NCBI GenBank assembly: GCA_021845575.1
Contig: JAJZVQ010000002.1
Span: forward strand, 1 to 64,000
Direction of reading: 5' to 3'
Origin: Microcaldota archaeon
GTDB lineage: Archaea > Micrarchaeota > Micrarchaeia > Micrarchaeales > Micrarchaeaceae
DNA: 64,000 bases
In this document: positions 1,096 through 57,747 of the stretch, one piece after another
Position numbering within the stretch: the first letter of the stretch is position 1
How the letters are laid out: the number at the start of each line of letters is the position of its first letter
Notes under the pieces: generated by a model
What the model was told of the DNA's origin: nothing
Database searches by the model: none
What the model saw: the letters and a program-made list of their open reading frames with translations, nothing else
Translations under genes and position numbers: made by a program

Positions 1096-1185
1096 TGGGC
1101 CTGAGGAGAGTTGAACTCCTTTCTCCAGCGTGTAAAGCTTATGCGCGGTTATCCGCTTGGCATCGTACCGATGGACCACAGGCCC
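1096..1185 (-). tRNA. tRNA-Val (TAC anticodon) with a 19-nt intron in the anticodon stem
   Basis: Acceptor arms GGGCCTG and CAGGCCC pair perfectly with discriminator A. The T-arm is AGGAG-TTCAACT-CTCCT. The anticodon arm closes only after removing 19 nt: CCA + GC gives stem CCAGC/GCTGG around loop TTTACAC, so the anticodon is TAC. The intron therefore sits in the anticodon stem, about position 29/30 rather than the canonical 37/38. The D stem is short, as in some Glu/Val-like tRNAs. No CCA is encoded. The gene lies just 3' of the aminotransferase gene. Confidence 0.88.
1139..1157 (-). other. tRNA-Val intron (19 nt, noncanonical position)
   Basis: The intron contains a perfect GCGG-ATAA-CCGC hairpin, flanked by exon/intron bases that can pair (ATGC with GCAT). 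This leaves a bulge on one side only, a relaxed bulge-helix-loop rather than a strict bulge-helix-bulge. The boundary is ambiguous by one base because an A is repeated at both ends. Removal restores a perfect five-pair anticodon stem. Confidence 0.8.
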
Positions 1186-13582: not shown

Positions 13583-14707
13583 ATGAAAAATATTGTCATT
13601 CTTGGGAGCACAGGATCTATTGGAAAACAGGCACTCGACGTGGTAAGGGCAAACAGGGATAAATTCAAGGTTGTTGGGCTTGCTGGAGGAGAAAATGTTG
13701 AAGCCCTTTTGCAACAGGTAAAGGAATTTTCGCCTATTTATGTAAACTCGCCCAATATAAAAGAAAAGTCATGGAATAACGCAAAGGTAGTTTCCTTGGA
13801 AGAGATGGCAGTAGTGCCTGAAGCGGATCTTGTATTGATATCTACAGTAGGCTCTGTGGGGCTCGTTCCGACTTTAGAGGCAATAAGAAGCAAAAAGGAG
13901 GTCGCTCTTGCAAATAAGGAGGTATTGATAATGGCCGGAGAGCTTGTAATGGCGGAGGCAAAGAAATACAACGTGCAGATTCTTCCGGTAGACAGCGAGC
14001 ATAATGCGGTATGGCAATGCCTTATGGGAGATTGCACGTTTGGCTCTGGCTCTGTTTCCGGTCCTGTGAAGAGGATTATTATCACTGCATCAGGAGGTGC
14101 ATTTCGCGACTGGCCTGTAGAAAAGCTTGATTCCGTTACTCCTGAAGAGGCGCTTGCGCATCCAACATGGAGCATGGGAAAAAAGATAACCATAGATTCT
14201 GCCACATTGATGAACAAGGGATTTGAGGTAATTGAAGCGAGATGGCTGTTCGGCATGGATTACGACAGGATCAGCGTGTTGCTGCACAGGGAAAGCATAA
14301 TCCACGCGATGGCCGAGTTTGCCGATGGTTCGTTCAAAGCTGTCTTGAGCTATCCGGATATGCATATTCCGATACAGCATGCACTTTCCTATCCGGAACG
14401 TTTTGGTGTTGTATGGAAACAGCTTGATCTGGAAAATTTGGAAAAGCTATCGTTTGCAAAAATGAATTATGGTAGGTATCCATGCTTCAATCTTGCGATG
14501 GAAGCGGCAAAGAAAGAAGGAAGTTATACGGCAGTATTGAACGCTGCGGATGATGTGGCGGTGCACAAATTCCTCGATGGCAAGATAAAGTTTACAGACA
14601 TAGAGAAAATAGTAAGGAAGGTGCTGGATGAGCACAAACCTATACCCCACCCGAGCATAGAAGACGTAATTAGAATAGATGAGGAAGTTAGGAATTCGCT
14701 GAAGTGA
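13583..14707 (+). CDS. dxr: 1-deoxy-D-xylulose 5-phosphate reductoisomerase
   Basis: A full-length (374 aa) bacterial-type DXR, which converts DXP to 2-C-methyl-D-erythritol 4-phosphate with NADPH. All hallmarks are intact: NADPH loop GSTGSIG (8-14), ALANKE (108-113), metal ligands in PVDSEHNAVWQ (D137, E139), GGAFR (171-175), the flexible loop HPTWSMGKKITIDSATL (193-209) and NKGFEVIEARWLF with the third metal ligand E218. Archaea normally make isoprenoids by mevalonate, so the gene is unexpected. No other MEP gene is in this window. A single gene, reading divergently from the glycosyltransferase, with GTGGTATA before the ATG. Confidence 0.95.
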   Translation: MKNIVILGSTGSIGKQALDVVRANRDKFKVVGLAGGENVEALLQQVKEFSPIYVNSPNIKEKSWNNAKVVSLEEMAVVPEADLVLISTVGSVGLVPTLEAIRSKKEVALANKEVLIMAGELVMAEAKKYNVQILPVDSEHNAVWQCLMGDCTFGSGSVSGPVKRIIITASGGAFRDWPVEKLDSVTPEEALAHPTWSMGKKITIDSATLMNKGFEVIEARWLFGMDYDRISVLLHRESIIHAMAEFADGSFKAVLSYPDMHIPIQHALSYPERFGVVWKQLDLENLEKLSFAKMNYGRYPCFNLAMEAAKKEGSYTAVLNAADDVAVHKFLDGKIKFTDIEKIVRKVLDEHKPIPHPSIEDVIRIDEEVRNSLK

Positions 14708-25120: not shown

Positions 25121-26254
25121 GTGGGTAATAGTTCGGTAAAAAATAATGGCATAAAAAAACACATTAAGAAAAAAAATCTTGAATCATCGGGACCATCTTA
25201 TGACCTGAAGATAGATAAATTACACCTTGCGATTGCGATCATTCTTATAGTGGCTGCGTTTATTGTAGTATTATTGTCTTTTTGGCATGCACAAAGTCAT
25301 ACAAATGCAAGTTCGACTACTACACTGCAAAATCAAAGTGTACAAAAAGTTTCTAGAAGCTTGTTTATAAATGGAATAAATAAATTTAACGAAACAAAAA
25401 ATATTGAAGTGTCATACACCTTAAACATGTCGGGTGAATATGGTTTTAAGATACCTGTTTTGATTAATTTATATAAACTATTTAATAATACAAAAATCGA
25501 CTTAAAAATTCCTTCGGTTAATTATGAAATAGCAATCTATTCTGAAAATAATGAAGAGGTAACATGTGATATCTCAAATTTAAGTAATGCTGCTTGTAAT
25601 ATAAGCAAAATAAACTATTATAAAAAGATAATGTTATTTGGCAAGAATGTGAGTTTTTTGGATAATATGTCCATTGATTATATTAACAAAAGCACAATAT
25701 TGGGGAACAGCTGTTCAGATTTTAATATAATGATACCTAATAATATAATGAAAAATATTAGTGGGTTGTCTAGTGAAATACAGCCTGCTTACCCCCAACA
25801 GTCAGATTTAACATATACCGAAAATATATGCCTTAACAAAACGTACGGATTCCCGGCTTATATTAATTTATTGCAATCCGCGAATTTTGGAAATGAGACA
25901 ACCTCTATTTTTTCCATGACTGCCACCAATAATTCTGTCGGAATGGTAAATAACAGTGAATTTTTGTTGCCAGTGCCTTTTTTGGTCAAGAGCGATGCGT
26001 ATTGCAATAGTAGTGGAATTACCCTCAATTTTACTCCTTTAATAAACCTATCTAATCCTAAACTCATTATAAATATTTCAAATTATAATTATAACAAAAG
26101 TATTGAAGTTAATAAGATACTGAAAGGCAATTATATCTCCTTTGGCAATTACTCAATAAATATTAATTCGACTTCTGATAAAGGTATGGAGCCGAATTAT
26201 TTGAATGTGTGCAGAGACAATTATTGCACACATAGTGTTTGTTACGCACCATAA
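25121..26254 (+). CDS. Secreted/membrane-anchored glycoprotein-like protein (paralogue of the 14.9 kb gene)
   Basis: A 377-aa protein from a GTG start, with a basic N-terminus, one membrane segment (LAIAIILIVAAFIVVLLSF, about residues 37-55) and a long external part full of Asn-X-Ser/Thr sequons. It shares with the 14.9 kb protein the spacing of cysteines and the blocks listed there, but lacks the Ser/Thr tail. The C-terminus ends in a Cys-containing segment (CRDNYCTHSVCYAP). Function unknown; likely surface-exposed. Upstream is an AT-rich promoter region with TTTATAAATTTATTAATAAA. Confidence 0.75.
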   Translation: MGNSSVKNNGIKKHIKKKNLESSGPSYDLKIDKLHLAIAIILIVAAFIVVLLSFWHAQSHTNASSTTTLQNQSVQKVSRSLFINGINKFNETKNIEVSYTLNMSGEYGFKIPVLINLYKLFNNTKIDLKIPSVNYEIAIYSENNEEVTCDISNLSNAACNISKINYYKKIMLFGKNVSFLDNMSIDYINKSTILGNSCSDFNIMIPNNIMKNISGLSSEIQPAYPQQSDLTYTENICLNKTYGFPAYINLLQSANFGNETTSIFSMTATNNSVGMVNNSEFLLPVPFLVKSDAYCNSSGITLNFTPLINLSNPKLIINISNYNYNKSIEVNKILKGNYISFGNYSININSTSDKGMEPNYLNVCRDNYCTHSVCYAP

Positions 26255-26314: not shown

Positions 26315-27112
26315 TTAAAAGCGCATAAAAGAAACAGGATCTTGCGTATTTACTTTATCTGATTGCTTAGAGGATATAGTTTTTTCGGATTTGAAGATTT
26401 TCTTTTCTTCGTACATTCTTTTGTCTGCAATTTTGAACATTTTTTCTGTAATCTCTTTAATTGTTTTTTCATCATATACCGAATCATTTATATCATGTAA
26501 AACTTCATGAACTGTGGAATAACCTGCTGAAGCACTAACCTTGATATCCGGTAAATTTATGTTTTTTTCTGCACACATTTTTTGAAATTCGTGATGTAAT
26601 TGCCTTTTAATCCTTTGTGCAACAATATGCGATTCCTTCATGTTTGCGTTGTCTATTATTACAACAAATTCGTCGCCACCTATCCTATATCCGTCAGTGT
26701 CCCCTTCTCTAGTATACTTTCTGATGGATTCTGAAAGGGAGTATAAGTATGTATCTCCGGCATCATGGCCGTACTTATCATTTATTTCTTTTAGGTTGTT
26801 GAGATCTAAAACGATTATGGCAGGGCCTTTGAGACCTATTACTCCATTCTGTTTCTCCCTTATATACCTAGAAACACTTGAGGATATATCTTTATTAAAT
26901 TTCTTTTTATTCCCTAATTTTGTTGAATCCTCGATGAGGCATTCCTTCCTAAGAATTTTGATAATTTCTTCATCCTCTTTGATTATCTCTAAAAGATCTA
27001 AAATTTGTTCGTTTAATGTGGCATTTGGCTTGGTTGTGACTTTTTCAATTTCTTTTTTTGTTGAATCCTCTATTTGGTTAGATGTTGTTGCTTTACTAAA
27101 TGTTGTATTCAT
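26315..27112 (-). CDS. GGDEF-domain protein (putative diguanylate cyclase)
   Basis: A 265-aa soluble protein: a helical N-terminus (about 1-60, coiled-coil-like) and a GGDEF domain (about 61-230). The active-site signature is exact, YRIGGDEFVVI (GGDEF at 145-149), and the metal/substrate loop reads VLDLNNLKEINDKYGHDAGD. The family makes cyclic di-GMP from two GTP. No canonical RxxD inhibitory site at the usual spacing and no sensor or membrane domain. GGDEF proteins are rare in archaea. It could instead be a c-di-GMP or other nucleotide enzyme with altered product. Divergent from the PD-(D/E)XK-like gene. Confidence 0.92.
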   Translation of the reverse strand: MNTTFSKATTSNQIEDSTKKEIEKVTTKPNATLNEQILDLLEIIKEDEEIIKILRKECLIEDSTKLGNKKKFNKDISSSVSRYIREKQNGVIGLKGPAIIVLDLNNLKEINDKYGHDAGDTYLYSLSESIRKYTREGDTDGYRIGGDEFVVIIDNANMKESHIVAQRIKRQLHHEFQKMCAEKNINLPDIKVSASAGYSTVHEVLHDINDSVYDEKTIKEITEKMFKIADKRMYEEKKIFKSEKTISSKQSDKVNTQDPVSFMRF

Positions 27113-27386: not shown

Positions 27387-28013
27387 TTGACCGTAACTGT
27401 ACTTAATAAAAAATTTGGATATGATTACAGTTCGATTATGAGAGGGGCAGAAAAAACTTCAACGAAAAACGCGTCTAATTTTGAGAAGAGAGTATCTAAG
27501 ATATTAGATTGCTTAGATATAAAATATACAAGAGAGCCTGTAATATTCAGCTATGAAGGTAAAAACAGGACATTGACCTTTAAACCTGATTTTCTCCTTG
27601 AAAATTTGATATTAAACAATAAAAAAATTGTTATTGAACCTCACGGAAAAAGGTTTTTTGATGAAAAATTTGTGATTAAATTAAACAAATTTATGAATTC
27701 CGAGGAACATGATAAATATTATTTGGTGTTGGTGACAGATGGGAAAACGGATAACATTGAAAAACGCATTAAAAAAAGAAATAAAAAATTGGGTATTGCG
27801 GATATCTGCGACGAGTTCATTGTTTCTAGTAAAGGTTCAAAGATAGAAAAACAACAAAAAATATATCTTCCTTTGATAAGAAAGTCAAGAAATGAATTGT
27901 CTGCAATCTATAAACAAATTGGCAAAAATATATACAACGAGAATGTTTTTATCTCGTTCTTACTTTCTATAGTTAATAAGAATAATGAGTACCAATTAAT
28001 CAGGCATGAATGA
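27387..28013 (+). CDS. Putative PD-(D/E)XK nuclease-like protein
   Basis: About 208 aa from TTG at 27387 (GGTGTGG upstream) or 191 aa from ATG at 27438. The arrangement FEKRVSKILDCLDIKYTREPVI, LTFKPDFLLEN, KKIVIEPHGK is the Glu ... Pro-Asp ... Glu-X-Lys-like pattern of PD-(D/E)XK endonucleases; the last motif is E-P-H-G-K, slightly unusual. The rest is basic and helical. Whether it is a nuclease for repair, restriction or something else is unknown. Confidence 0.6.
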   Translation: MTVTVLNKKFGYDYSSIMRGAEKTSTKNASNFEKRVSKILDCLDIKYTREPVIFSYEGKNRTLTFKPDFLLENLILNNKKIVIEPHGKRFFDEKFVIKLNKFMNSEEHDKYYLVLVTDGKTDNIEKRIKKRNKKLGIADICDEFIVSSKGSKIEKQQKIYLPLIRKSRNELSAIYKQIGKNIYNENVFISFLLSIVNKNNEYQLIRHE

Positions 28014-40753: not shown

Positions 40754-41914
40754 TTAGGGTTGCAGCCAGTCTATCTCATAATATTCAAATTCACTGTTTT
40801 CTAATATTATCCTTTTTATTTTATAATATGTGACCGATGTTTCCCGGTCTGCAATCGCTATTATAAGTTCGCACTTTCTCGAATTTGCTTCGTTGATTAT
40901 TGCGGATAATTCGCTTCCACCGATATACTCTTCTTCGCTGAGAGAAAGCATTGCGTATTTTGGTTTGTTTTTTCCTGGAACTTCCGCATTGCCGCCGTTT
41001 CTGTAATACAGTAAGAAATCTATTGAAAGTTTTTTCTTTCTGCTTTTTCCAGGTATTGCGAGTATGAATGTTTTTCTCACGGAGTGGGCGACGCGTATCA
41101 CTCTGGCCCATTCGGATATAAGCAACTTCGCATCTCTCGGGAATACGTGAATGACGTGCTTGGAATGTATCCAATCGTCCTTGTTTTTTAGGGGTTGCGC
41201 CCCTGGGAAATAGAGTCTGAAGTGCGTTCCGAACTTGAACCCTGTTTTTATCACATATCCCTTGCTCCTCCAATCCGCATAGACCGAATATAATTTCTGG
41301 AAATCGGGGTGCCTTCTCGAAGATATCTCAATTAGCTCCTTTTCGGTGTAGTTTGTTTTCAGAAGGGCTTTTTCTGTGAGGAAAAGAGTTTCATAAACAT
41401 CGAGTTTGTTTAGTGTGCCATGGTCACTTGATTTATAAGTTCCATATTGCCCGAACCAATGGTCCTCATAGATTTTTCTTCCTTTTTCCTGATCATCTAT
41501 TACTGTGATTAAATCATCTGCATAGAAAACCCCATCCAGTTTGTAATCTTTTATGCTGAGCCTTTTTTCGGCGTATTTTTTTGTTTGCGTGGGTTGCTGG
41601 ACATTTTCCGTTTCGCCGGTTGGTTTTTTTATTATCAGTCCTCTGTCTCTCCAGTCTTTGTAAGTGAAGTACCTCGCCATAAATTTTCTGTTTTTCCCGA
41701 AAATTGAGGCAATGTCGTTAAAGCCCAATTTAACGTTTTCAGTGGATACGCAAAAGGCGTTCCTCGTATCTATAAGATAAAGCAGTTCCTCGATTTCAAG
41801 AATCAGCCTTCCGTCTTTTTTTGTGCCGAAATGTCCGTTGTTTAGGATATCTGCGGTTGACTGGTCAGCCGTACTTATCTCCCTTGTTTTTATGTTAAAT
41901 TTCAAAGAAAGCAT
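40754..41914 (-). CDS. endA: tRNA-splicing endonuclease, three-unit (epsilon2-like) type
   Basis: A 386-aa endonuclease with more than one EndA-type unit in a chain. The N-terminal part (YLIDTRNAFCV ... FTYKDWRDRGLIIKK) and the later part (FLTEKALLKTNYTEKEL ... VYADWRSKGYVIKTGFKFGTHFRLYFPG) are two copies of the N-domain/catalytic start; the final unit has HSKHVIHVFPRD and HSVRKTFILAI. Catalytic triad candidates are Y235, H250 and K281. Normal archaeal EndA is 170-190 or about 350 aa. This matches the three-unit enzymes reported from ARMAN archaea, which accept relaxed introns. Third gene after radA and dphB. Confidence 0.9.
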   Translation of the reverse strand: MLSLKFNIKTREISTADQSTADILNNGHFGTKKDGRLILEIEELLYLIDTRNAFCVSTENVKLGFNDIASIFGKNRKFMARYFTYKDWRDRGLIIKKPTGETENVQQPTQTKKYAEKRLSIKDYKLDGVFYADDLITVIDDQEKGRKIYEDHWFGQYGTYKSSDHGTLNKLDVYETLFLTEKALLKTNYTEKELIEISSRRHPDFQKLYSVYADWRSKGYVIKTGFKFGTHFRLYFPGAQPLKNKDDWIHSKHVIHVFPRDAKLLISEWARVIRVAHSVRKTFILAIPGKSRKKKLSIDFLLYYRNGGNAEVPGKNKPKYAMLSLSEEEYIGGSELSAIINEANSRKCELIIAIADRETSVTYYKIKRIILENSEFEYYEIDWLQP

Positions 41915-48937: not shown

Positions 48938-49936
48938 TTATCCTATATTTATGCTTGCCCTATCAATCTCTTTATTTTTGGCAATTTCAACTATCTGGCT
49001 TTTTTCTTGCAATCTTAATTTATAAATAAGCAGCGTTGCACCATTCACCGCATTAACATAATCTGCCTTTTCAAATGCAGAAGCACCTTTATAATTAACA
49101 TCCTCAATCACTCCAGATATCCCGCGATTATAACTAGCAATTACTAAAGAAACCATGTCCTGAAGTTTTGGATCAGGTTGCACCCCTTCCAACAAATCTG
49201 AAAAATATTTAATTATACTGTTTTTGCCATCATTACCAATTAATTTTGTTACTGCCTCATTTAAAATTGCAGTGCCTGCGCCGATATTCATTTTAGGATT
49301 AAATACATTTTCCCAATTAAGATTATACTTTTCAAAATGTATTGGATTTATCTGCATAAGCCCTGCTGCGCCAACATCTGATTTTTCATAATTTTTACCC
49401 GCAGATTCAATCATAATAATGCCACAGATAAGTTCTGGAGGGAGATTATACTCTTTTGCGATAGGTTTTACCTCCTCCCAGAATTTTTCTATGACGCCGC
49501 TTGCAATTTCTACATTAACATTTTTACTGTATTTGCCGTATTTTGCTATTATTTCATGGATCGGAATAGTTTTTGGTGCGTACATTAAAACGAAATTATT
49601 TTGTTTAACTCTCTGTCCTCCCCATAACTCTTTATTCATTTTAGTTGAATAAACAAAAGGCAATAAGGATATGTGATTTTTATTCTGTTCAACCAATCGA
49701 TAAGTCAACCTTTTCTTATTTTCAATATGCTTATATCCCTTGTTTAATAAAATAGTGGCTGCAGGTTTTCCTGATTCTGATACTGATACTGGTTTTGAAA
49801 TATTCGGTGCCGTCAAAGAAGCCACGCCAACAAATGCCGTAAGCGCAACTATACCTAAGGCTGCCTTGACTTTTTTAACCTTCTCTATGGCCTTTAAATT
49901 TTTCCTTGTTTTTTCTATGTCTATCGATTTATCCAC
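48938..49936 (-). CDS. Secreted lytic transglycosylase (SLT/lysozyme-like)
   Basis: A 332-aa protein with an N-terminal signal (KKVKAALGIVALTAFVGVASL) and a C-terminal SLT domain (about 150-310). The catalytic Glu is in CGIIMIESAGK (E177), followed by GAAGLMQINP and the far part LVIASYNRGISGV, the three SLT signatures. The enzyme family cleaves the glycan backbone of bacterial peptidoglycan. The middle (about 60-150) is of unknown type. The start is GTG at 49936; there is no in-frame ATG until residue 100. Very unexpected in an archaeon. Confidence 0.92.
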   Translation of the reverse strand: MDKSIDIEKTRKNLKAIEKVKKVKAALGIVALTAFVGVASLTAPNISKPVSVSESGKPAATILLNKGYKHIENKKRLTYRLVEQNKNHISLLPFVYSTKMNKELWGGQRVKQNNFVLMYAPKTIPIHEIIAKYGKYSKNVNVEIASGVIEKFWEEVKPIAKEYNLPPELICGIIMIESAGKNYEKSDVGAAGLMQINPIHFEKYNLNWENVFNPKMNIGAGTAILNEAVTKLIGNDGKNSIIKYFSDLLEGVQPDPKLQDMVSLVIASYNRGISGVIEDVNYKGASAFEKADYVNAVNGATLLIYKLRLQEKSQIVEIAKNKEIDRASINIG

Positions 49937-54702: not shown

Positions 54703-57471
54703 CTAGCTACATTCGCTGTATCCGCATTTTGGGCACGTGAAGCAGCCTTCTGCGGCCACCATAGCCGTTCCGCAGTTTGGGCAATTCGCTTCCCTTACAG
54801 GAGAGAATACATAGTCGTTAGCCTGTTCCTTTATCGAGGACATAGTAGACTCCTCTTCAGTGTTTTTATGCAAATTTTTTACTTCCTTAAGGCTCTTTTG
54901 CGAGTTATCAATAGTTCTAAGAACCTGCGAACTTTTGCTGCTATCCCTATATACTGTTATTCCCTTGCATCCGAGCTTGTATGCCAACATATAAGCATTT
55001 TCTATATCTTGAGGGGTCGCATAACGCGTAAAATTTATTGTTTTTGATACCGCATTATCAGTATATTTCTGGAACGCAGCTTGCATCTTTACATGCCATT
55101 CAGGAGCTATGTCGTGTGCAGTAACAAACAATTTCCTTATCTGTTCAGGTATCTCTTCAATCTCTTGAATTGAAGTTTTTCCAGCAAGCTTCTTAATCAA
55201 CTCCTCAGAATAAAAATTTTGTTCGAGTGCATATCTCTCGAATTCGGTATTCACTTCTATTAAATTTGAACCAAGACTTTCTTTAACATTCCTCATATAG
55301 ACAACTGAAAATATCGGCTCTATTCCCTGCGAAGCGCCGCCAGAAATTATACTTATCGTGCCTGTTGGAGCTATTGTAGTCACTGTAGAATTTCTAAGGG
55401 GTTTGTATCCGAGTTTAGCCCATATGCTATTTTTGAATTCGGGAAATGGGCCCCTTTCCGTCGCAAGCTCCTCGCTAGTTTTCCTTGCAGTTTCGGTAAT
55501 GACTTTCATCACCTTTTCCGCAATCATTACCGCCTCGTTGCTGTCATATCTCACGCCAAGTTTTATAAGCAAATCCGCCCACCCCATGACCCCCAAACCG
55601 ACTCTTCTTATTGCCTTAGTAGTTTCTTCTATCTGTTTTATTGGATACTTGTTTACTTCTATAACATTATCTAGAAACCTTATTCCTATCCTCACCGTAT
55701 TTCTAAGTTCTTCCCAGTCTATCTCATAATTATGGTCAACTGTCTTGACCATTTTTGAAAGATTGATTGATCCGAGATTGCACGAATCATAAGGATATAA
55801 TGGTTGTTCGCCGCAATTATGGTTTATAAATCCATTGGCCACGTAGATATTGTATGCAGGGACAGAAAAATCAAAAAAATCATCTTCTATTGTAATAAGC
55901 TCCTTTATGGGCAGAAAATCCAGTTCAAATTTTTTTCTTTCTTCATTGAACGAAATATTTGCTATCCTATCATTAATAAAAAGCTTGTCCGCCCTGCTCC
56001 ATCCTCCCTCAGTCAGAATTCTATGCTCTAAAGTTACTGTTATCTCATTTCCGTCAACGATTATCCTGACTCCTTTTTTCTTTCCGACATGCCATATTGT
56101 TGCATTTTGTTCTATAAATACGACTTCTTTTGAATTTGTAGTTGCAGGAACCATAATTTTAGTAGGGTATGACAATTCGCCTGCACATTTTACAATGCCT
56201 CCATTAATCAAAATATTCATCTGTTTGTCGACTCTTGCAGCACATCTTGCAACTTCATATAACTCTTTCGCAGATTTTAATCCAGAAGAGGTAAATATCA
56301 TTGAATCTTTAGAAACACAAGGATTTGTGGATTCTATAGGTCCATAACTAGGAACAGGATTCGAATAACTCGAATTCATTCTGTCTATAAATACAATCCC
56401 AGGGTCTCCAGTCTTCCACGCCATTGTTATTATTAAGTTCCATACTGCCCTTGCATTTAGTGTTCCAACAGGTTTTTGCGTTTTTGGATTTATCAATTCA
56501 TACCCTTTATTATCGTTTAACGATTTCATAAATTTGTCTGTTATGGCAATTGATATATTGAAGTTTCTTAATGCTCCCTCGGTCTCTTTTGACATTATGA
56601 AATTAAGAATGTCCGGGTGATCCACCCTCAATATTCCCATATTCGCGCCCCTTCTCTTCCCGCCTTGTTTTATTTGTTCTGTGGCGCTATCAAATATCCT
56701 CATGAATGAAAGAGGACCGGAAGAAACCCCACTAGTTCCCCTCACAATATCATTTGCAGGTCTAAGTCTGGAAAACGAAAATCCCGTACCGCCCCCACTT
56801 TTGTGGATAATTGCGGTATATTTTAATGCATCGAATATCTCCTCAATAGAATCCCCTACTGGCAACACAAAACATGCACTGAGCTGTCCTAATTTTGTCC
56901 CCGCATTCATAAGAGTCGGTGAATTAGGCATGAATTTAAATGATACCATAATATCAAAAAATTGTTCTGCTATTTTTTCTATTTCAGCGTTAGTTTTTCC
57001 AAATTCTTTTTCTGCTTCTGCTATCGCCATCGCAACTCTTCGGAATAACTGCCCGGGCGTTTCCACTACCTTTCCGCTACTATCTCTTAAAAGATATCTT
57101 GCAGCTAACACAATAAGGGAGTTTATAGGCAATTTGAGATCGTCTTCAGGTATCCCTAGTGACGCTTTAAAAAACCTTATCTCTGCACGTTTATTCCTAT
57201 ACAATATATACGCTTTTGCAACTGTCGCATCTGCATCCATAAGAACATTTTCCACAATATTCTGTATCTCCTCTACTTCGATTTCTTTTTTTCCTGTTTT
57301 GTTTATTTTATCTATAACAAGTTCTGCAACATTCAATGCTTTACTCTGAAGTTCCTTATCACTGTGCATAGGATAAACATTAATAAATGCCTTTTTTACA
57401 GCATTTGCAATTTTGTTTTCGTCAAAATCTACTACGGTCCCATTTCTTTTGATAACATTTTCAATCGCCAT
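54703..57471 (-). CDS. nrdJ: Ribonucleoside-diphosphate reductase, adenosylcobalamin-dependent (class II), with intein
   Basis: A 922-aa precursor for the B12-dependent reductase making dNTP precursors. ATP-cone near the N-terminus (KRNGTVVDFDENKIANAVKKAF), core motifs SACFVLPVGDSIEEIFD, GGGTGFSFSRLRP, and after the intein CGEQPLYPYDSCNLGSINL with the thiyl Cys; later APTGTISIISGGASQGIEP. The C-terminus has a Cys-rich zinc-like module (CPNCGTAMV, CFTCPKCGYSEC). The ATG at 57471 follows GGGTG; a TTG 12 bases earlier is possible. Confidence 0.95.
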   Translation of the reverse strand: MAIENVIKRNGTVVDFDENKIANAVKKAFINVYPMHSDKELQSKALNVAELVIDKINKTGKKEIEVEEIQNIVENVLMDADATVAKAYILYRNKRAEIRFFKASLGIPEDDLKLPINSLIVLAARYLLRDSSGKVVETPGQLFRRVAMAIAEAEKEFGKTNAEIEKIAEQFFDIMVSFKFMPNSPTLMNAGTKLGQLSACFVLPVGDSIEEIFDALKYTAIIHKSGGGTGFSFSRLRPANDIVRGTSGVSSGPLSFMRIFDSATEQIKQGGKRRGANMGILRVDHPDILNFIMSKETEGALRNFNISIAITDKFMKSLNDNKGYELINPKTQKPVGTLNARAVWNLIITMAWKTGDPGIVFIDRMNSSYSNPVPSYGPIESTNPCVSKDSMIFTSSGLKSAKELYEVARCAARVDKQMNILINGGIVKCAGELSYPTKIMVPATTNSKEVVFIEQNATIWHVGKKKGVRIIVDGNEITVTLEHRILTEGGWSRADKLFINDRIANISFNEERKKFELDFLPIKELITIEDDFFDFSVPAYNIYVANGFINHNCGEQPLYPYDSCNLGSINLSKMVKTVDHNYEIDWEELRNTVRIGIRFLDNVIEVNKYPIKQIEETTKAIRRVGLGVMGWADLLIKLGVRYDSNEAVMIAEKVMKVITETARKTSEELATERGPFPEFKNSIWAKLGYKPLRNSTVTTIAPTGTISIISGGASQGIEPIFSVVYMRNVKESLGSNLIEVNTEFERYALEQNFYSEELIKKLAGKTSIQEIEEIPEQIRKLFVTAHDIAPEWHVKMQAAFQKYTDNAVSKTINFTRYATPQDIENAYMLAYKLGCKGITVYRDSSKSSQVLRTIDNSQKSLKEVKNLHKNTEEESTMSSIKEQANDYVFSPVREANCPNCGTAMVAAEGCFTCPKCGYSECS
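55816..56319 (-). other. Mini-intein in nrdJ (168 aa)
   Basis: The intein interrupts STNP-C...N-CGEQP, directly before the conserved active-site Cys of NrdJ. Block A begins CVSKDSMIFTSSGLKSA, with a block B-like segment (GNEITVTLEHRILTEGGW) and the end DFSVPAYNIYVANGFINHN, with penultimate His and terminal Asn, then +1 Cys. It is 168 aa, too short for a homing endonuclease, and no such motif is seen. Confidence 0.92.
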
Positions 57472-57747
57472 TGCAACACCCAAACACAGATAAGAATAAG
57501 AAATAAGATTTATAACAAGTATTGCATCGAATTAATTAGCAGTGTAATCAAAGAACAAGATAACCTTTTTATTTGTTATTTTTTACCCTCCTATTTTTTA
57601 TATGCAGAACTTAGCAAGCCTTCTTCGGAGACAGGATAAAAGCGGCATAGGAGAACCGAGAAACATATAAAACATATCCTGATGTGATGATTGCACGAAC
57701 ATATCAAAATCCCATTCTCTTCTAGGAGAAAATGGCACCTTTCTCGA

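Follow-up and report, generated by a model that had tools for sequence, protein, structure and literature searches.

An intact, stand-alone GGDEF domain in a member of the Micrarchaeota, a candidate archaeal diguanylate cyclase

Cyclic di-GMP (c-di-GMP) is regarded as an essentially bacterial messenger. In 2010 conventional GGDEF signalling domains were stated to be absent from archaea (PMC2904730), and in 2018 a single archaeal GGDEF protein was known, that of Methanocella, with contamination left possible for others (PMC5847659). The same paper reports that the GGDEF domain of the REC-GGDEF' regulators of Micrarchaeum is inactivated. A 2021 study gives more than 300 archaeal GGDEF BLAST hits, many of them from Asgard and DPANN archaea, and describes c-di-GMP as undetectable in Haloferax or Sulfolobus, the two archaea assayed (PMC8646023). 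A 2022 review holds that GGDEF proteins are almost completely absent from archaea and that confirmation is needed (PMC10086821). Since GGDEF domains in DPANN archaea are already noted in the 2021 study (PMC8646023), their occurrence there is not new. Judged on partial literature, what is new here is how often such genes occur across the phylum, that their catalytic core is intact, that some share a conserved neighbourhood, and that known partners were not found in the order to which the host belongs. Our literature search, which left subscription journals mostly outside its coverage, found nothing linking Micrarchaeota with c-di-GMP.

The gene, its product and the predicted fold

The gene described here lies in a 64-kb stretch of DNA (the window). 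Its reading frame starts with ATG and has no internal stops. The features discussed below are as follows.

26315-27112 (-): gene for the GGDEF-domain protein, 265 amino acids, stand-alone, apparently monocistronic
26939-27016 (-): residues 33-58, N-terminal helix entering the GGDEF domain (AlphaFold helix, fold matches), probably a dimerising coiled coil
26393-26932 (-): GGDEF (diguanylate cyclase) domain, residues 61-240 (PF00990, TIGR00254, fold)
26753-26806 (-): first metal/nucleotide loop, residues 103-120, with D103, K108, N111, H116 and D120 (alignments)
26699-26710 (-): RxxD motif of the allosteric I-site, R135-E-G-D138, with one extra residue before GGDEF
26666-26680 (-): GGDEF signature, residues 145-149 (sequence, alignment)
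26402-26404 (-): K237 (PleD K442, phosphate contact), followed by a degenerate loop, KKIFK

The GGDEF match is far above chance. Residues 64-209 match Pfam PF00990 (83.8 bits where the cut-off is 23.8, E 1.5e-23), and residues 59-240 match TIGR00254, the model for diguanylate cyclases in NCBIfam (84.6 bits where the cut-off is 37.4, E 6e-24). The protein is soluble, and Pfam finds GGDEF as its sole domain, with no REC, PAS, GAF or other sensor domain, which agrees with the first-pass annotation that no sensor domain is fused. That annotation had also read the active site as exactly GGDEF and the metal loop as conserved, and both readings hold: the motif stands in the context YRIGGDEFVVI with D147 and E148 present, and in the alignment the loop, VLDLNNLKEINDKYGHDAGD, has D103, K108, N111 and D120 in place. 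No other GGDEF match was found in the host genome (779 kb in 48 contigs, 94% complete). The flanking genes at 25121-26254, which has no Pfam match, and at 27387-28013, which has a weak endonuclease likeness, both lie on the strand opposite the GGDEF gene, so that the latter is probably transcribed alone. An operon with an effector was rejected on this arrangement.

Several other features of the window may be recorded at this point. A full Dxr (1-deoxy-D-xylulose-5-phosphate reductoisomerase) is encoded at 13583-14707 (+) (TIGR00243, 470 bits, above cut-off); this enzyme belongs to the MEP route to isoprenoids, a bacterial pathway, and is unexpected in an archaeon. The product of 48938-49936 (-) has a lytic transglycosylase (SLT) domain (E 5e-18), and an archaeon should be without peptidoglycan. 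In the B12-dependent ribonucleotide reductase at 54703-57483 (-) the profile match is interrupted and picks up again near residue 556; the ends (CVSKDS ... HNC) resemble those of inteins, so that a small intein is probable. A third tRNA, at 1096-1185 (-), matches Rfam and was missed by ARAGORN.

In PleD numbering D103 corresponds to D327, K108 to K332, N111 to N335, H116 to H340, D120 to D344 and K237 to K442; the guanine and phosphate contacts of PleD (N335, D344, K332 and K442) are thus present as N111, D120, K108 and K237. Among 26 aligned proteins of the host's order, which are only about 19-33% identical to the window protein, D103, N111, R135, D147 and E148 are invariant, K108 and D120 are each kept in 24, and R143 and K237 in 25. 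The Asp at the PleD D344 position selects guanine and is a Ser in the Hypr enzymes that make cGAMP. No Ser of this type is there in the window protein, which has D120, or in its relatives, which have D or N, and this argues for GTP as the substrate over the GTP/ATP mix of the Hypr enzymes.

The AlphaFold model has a mean pLDDT of 90.5, and in it two helices, residues 7-26 and 33-58, lead into the GGDEF fold. The top PDB matches found with Foldseek are bacterial diguanylate cyclases, namely SiaD, GCN4-WspR, WspR, a phytochrome-activated cyclase, DgcB and PleD (E about 1e-10 for SiaD and WspR, 8e-9 for PleD). The best of them include cyclases with a coiled coil or helix linked to the domain (SiaD, GCN4-WspR and DgcB), and a sequence search of the PDB led to the same family. 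The suggestion made at first pass that the protein may be catalytic is thus in keeping with its residues and predicted fold, both of which resemble those of a catalytic diguanylate cyclase.

We consider the most likely reading, with a probability of roughly 55%, to be that the gene encodes a functional diguanylate cyclase feeding an unrecognised receptor. The strong Pfam and NCBIfam matches, the retention of core residues at low identity, the cyclase-like model and the recurrence of such genes across the order all support this prediction. The product would be a soluble archaeal diguanylate cyclase that may act as a homodimer held together by the N-terminal helices. With one Mg-GTP in each GGDEF domain, the dimer would join the two GTPs into c-di-GMP, and the RxxD site might serve for product inhibition. 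The c-di-GMP would presumably be read by a protein or RNA outside the known receptor families tested, and presumably be broken down by an enzyme that is neither EAL nor HD-GYP, such as a DHH-type phosphodiesterase of general function.

Some features of the sequence count against a working cyclase: the degraded loop after K237, the longer I-site spacing, and degenerate GGDEF sites in some relatives (loci L017 and L019). The equivalent of PleD R446 in the window protein is a Lys inside the degenerate loop. The loop that follows K237, K-x-x-G-R/K-N in bacteria, has decayed in the host's order generally: Gly is no longer a common residue at K+3, and K or R stands at K+4 in 15 of 25 proteins versus 64 of 76 bacterial controls. 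In allosterically inhibited cyclases RxxD lies five residues ahead of GG(D/E)EF; here R135 of the motif stands 12 residues from the second G of GGDEF, one more than the usual 11 seen in most homologues. The presence of RxxD is itself not special, because bacterial controls keep it nearly as often (R in 73 and D in 71 of 80). We dropped the I-site as proof of product feedback, its retention in the order being in no clear excess over these 80 controls.

The altered phosphate loop would also fit a domain that bound GTP or c-di-GMP without useful synthesis, serving as a nucleotide sensor or a protein-interaction module. Degenerate GGDEF domains act in this way in some bacterial proteins, the host's order also has a separate family in which REC is fused to a degenerate GGDEF domain (L020), and the known downstream parts of a c-di-GMP pathway were found neither in the host genome nor in its relatives. 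However, known sensor-type GGDEF domains usually lack an intact motif, whereas here the metal, base and triphosphate contacts of the catalytic core, and so more than the binding residues, are kept despite very low overall identity, and we think a purely binding role unlikely.

Archaeal origin and distribution in the phylum

A further reading is that the gene is bacterial DNA, either contamination of the assembly or a recent transfer without a role. GGDEF is a bacterial hallmark, at least two genomes of our phylum sample contain bacterial-looking contigs (G163:C42 and G280:C34), and the single sequence nearest to the window protein over the tree columns is bacterial, at 33% identity. Against this, the 64-kb contig also carries genes for aEF-2, PolB, RadA, deoxyhypusine synthase and FtsZ, and its tRNA-splicing endonuclease (EndA, 40754-41914) matches PDB entry 4fz2 over its full length with 565 bits. 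Entry 4fz2 is the tRNA endonuclease of ARMAN-2 (Micrarchaeum acidiphilum), which points to Micrarchaeota as the phylum of the host. The codon usage of the GGDEF gene is typical (rank 27 of 46), and its GC content is slightly low (0.325 versus 0.377, s.d. 0.039). Furthermore, GGDEF genes occur in many genera with a partly conserved neighbourhood, and in a tree of the domain the sequences of the host's order cluster together (6 label changes versus 21.8 in shuffles). The explanation by bacterial DNA is already largely refuted and in our estimate very improbable; the archaeal neighbours, the 4fz2 match and the native codon usage led us to reject bacterial contamination for the window. Carriage by a virus was also rejected, the phage matches being distant, with at most 33% identity among the matches listed. 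The placement of a GGDEF domain in an archaeon, as first annotated, is therefore upheld as that of a native gene by the archaeal genes of the contig and by normal codon usage.

The accompanying statement that archaeal genomes rarely carry such genes does not apply to Micrarchaeota. GGDEF matches above the Pfam cut-off were found in 22 of 60 relatives and, phylum-wide, in 109 of 295 genomes, more than one third, counts that include some weak REC-GGDEF' proteins with a broken motif and one bacterial-looking contig. In the host's order the good matches are mostly stand-alone proteins of 186-305 amino acids, and the copies checked lack membrane segments, apart from one whose start is doubtful. GGDEF genes are retained in both families of the order. 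In the second family about 14 GGDEF loci share one gene neighbourhood, whose members were recognised by eye as a methyltransferase, an endonuclease-IV-like protein and a small protein resembling rhodanese, and this conservation suggests that the GGDEF gene is resident and vertically kept there. The copy in the window sits outside that neighbourhood. A single clade for the GGDEF sequences of the order was not recovered: 14 of 25, together with three bacterial sequences, form a supported set in a tree whose long branches make deep placement unreliable.

A potassium channel is found near some of these loci. In genus g14 and at L022 the GGDEF gene has as its direct neighbour a K+ channel, recognised by eye from two TM segments and a TrkA-N-like region (L022, L028, L029, L148 and L149), and in several other loci a K+ channel lies 5-8 genes away (L034, L152, L153, L155, L159, L160, L162 and L168). 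The channel could be an effector, or the arrangement could be plain synteny.

Search for c-di-GMP partners

The first-pass annotation had proposed a search for EAL, HD-GYP and PilZ genes as a check. In profile searches EAL, PilZ, MshEN and HD_5 (HD-GYP) gave no match in the host genome or in any of 60 relatives; the same searches were positive in well-known bacterial control genomes. PilZ likewise gave no match in any of the 295 genomes of the phylum. The c-di-GMP-I riboswitch had no match in the host genome, but this is the weakest of the negatives, given stricter filters and no positive among 14 controls. It had also been held that a lack of receptors, together with a lack of GTP turnover, would speak against signalling; on the receptor side, the known families tested (PilZ, MshEN and the c-di-GMP-I riboswitch) were indeed not found in this genome. 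That neither these receptors nor the c-di-GMP phosphodiesterases tested for were found in the host genome counts against a functional cyclase.

Across the 295 genomes, EAL gave two matches, one a GGDEF-EAL protein above the cut-off on G163:C42 and the other a fragment below it, and the riboswitch gave a single match, on G280:C34 (contamination of G280, 6%). Both contigs (L212 and L213, respectively) look bacterial, the former carrying, besides GGDEF-EAL, other proteins with PAS- and REC-type regions, and the latter a ClpC-like protein and a transposase. The only EAL match above the cut-off and the only riboswitch match in the phylum are thus likely to come from contaminant contigs, and anyone surveying c-di-GMP genes in archaea would be misled by their presence in these two archaeal bins.

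HD_5 was found in 29 of the 295 genomes, all in other families of the class except one from the host's own family (G291), and the proteins have the GYP motif in several cases and GYYG in others. GGDEF is also present in 19 of these 29 genomes, with a hypergeometric p of 0.009 over all 295 and a within-class p that ranges from 0.44 to 0.00003 depending on the assumed class size; because of this swing we regard the co-occurrence as only suggestive. The HD-GYP-like proteins in which GYYG replaces GYP (L191-L193) come from sister families (G188, G066 and G268), and these three genomes also have a GGDEF protein with a long N-terminal region, for which Pfam gave no match in G066.

A putative diadenylate cyclase (DAC, PF02457, E 2.3e-10) is encoded elsewhere in the host genome (L211, G000:C38:10992-11330), so that c-di-AMP signalling may exist next to the GGDEF protein; among the relatives searched only 5 of 60 have a match to this family. 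Its presence implies that dinucleotides other than c-di-GMP may be made here, which bears on whether the window protein could be active as a nucleotidyltransferase, within the GGDEF/Thg1/CRISPR-polymerase superfamily, but yield something else, for instance pppGpG, another dinucleotide or a modified RNA end, in cells that have no c-di-GMP signalling. The family is related to Thg1 and to the CRISPR polymerases, non-signalling archaeal relatives of the MK0296 type have been proposed (PMC2904730), and no c-di-GMP network was found. Sequence and fold nevertheless group the window protein with conventional bacterial diguanylate cyclases, and the guanine-selecting N111 and D120 are kept, so that we judge a different product improbable, more so than a binding role. 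Returning to the reading as a diguanylate cyclase, a broader proposal is that Micrarchaeota run a true archaeal cyclic-dinucleotide pathway, in which stand-alone coiled-coil cyclases are joined by a receptor and a degrading enzyme from unrecognised families and which is kept in very small genomes, possibly controlling surface or biofilm contact with a partner organism that serves as their host. This wider scheme is tentative, and we hold it to be less likely than not.

Comparison with known systems

The window gene joins the diguanylate cyclase family, and its orphan setting is the interesting part. If the enzyme works, a whole phylum of small-genome archaea would make c-di-GMP, and at least one order would do so without known means to read or remove it; receptors and phosphodiesterases would then await discovery, and these cells, well defined and small in genome, would be a place to look for them. 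If it is inactive, c-di-GMP signalling cannot be deduced from an intact GGDEF motif met in a genome survey.

The closest likeness is to WspR, SiaD and DgcB, in which a helix or coiled coil precedes the GGDEF domain. The window protein has the same predicted fold, the core residues and RxxD, and its N-terminal helix enters the domain through a DxxTxLGN turn as in these enzymes. In contrast to them, it has no REC, PAS, GAF or other sensor domain, its C-terminal G-R/K loop is degraded, and its archaeal host is without recognised EAL, HD-GYP, PilZ or MshEN partners.

Among archaeal proteins, the REC-GGDEF' regulators of Micrarchaeum (PMC5847659) come from the same phylum and have a domain of the GGDEF fold. 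They are about 400-450 amino acids long, include a REC-like region and have lost the active motif (L020), whereas in the window protein REC is lacking and the motif is intact. The MK0296-type relatives (PMC2904730) share the palm domain of the GGDEF superfamily, are archaeal and are predicted to be active. They have been described as a separate small non-signalling family and are set apart here by that description, while the window protein fits the models of conventional diguanylate cyclases. The archaeal GGDEF proteins of the 2021 study (PMC8646023) and that of Methanocella (PMC5847659) are likewise conventional GGDEF proteins in archaeal genomes; to those accounts, whose available parts give no residue analysis, locus conservation or within-phylum survey of partners, the present work adds all three.
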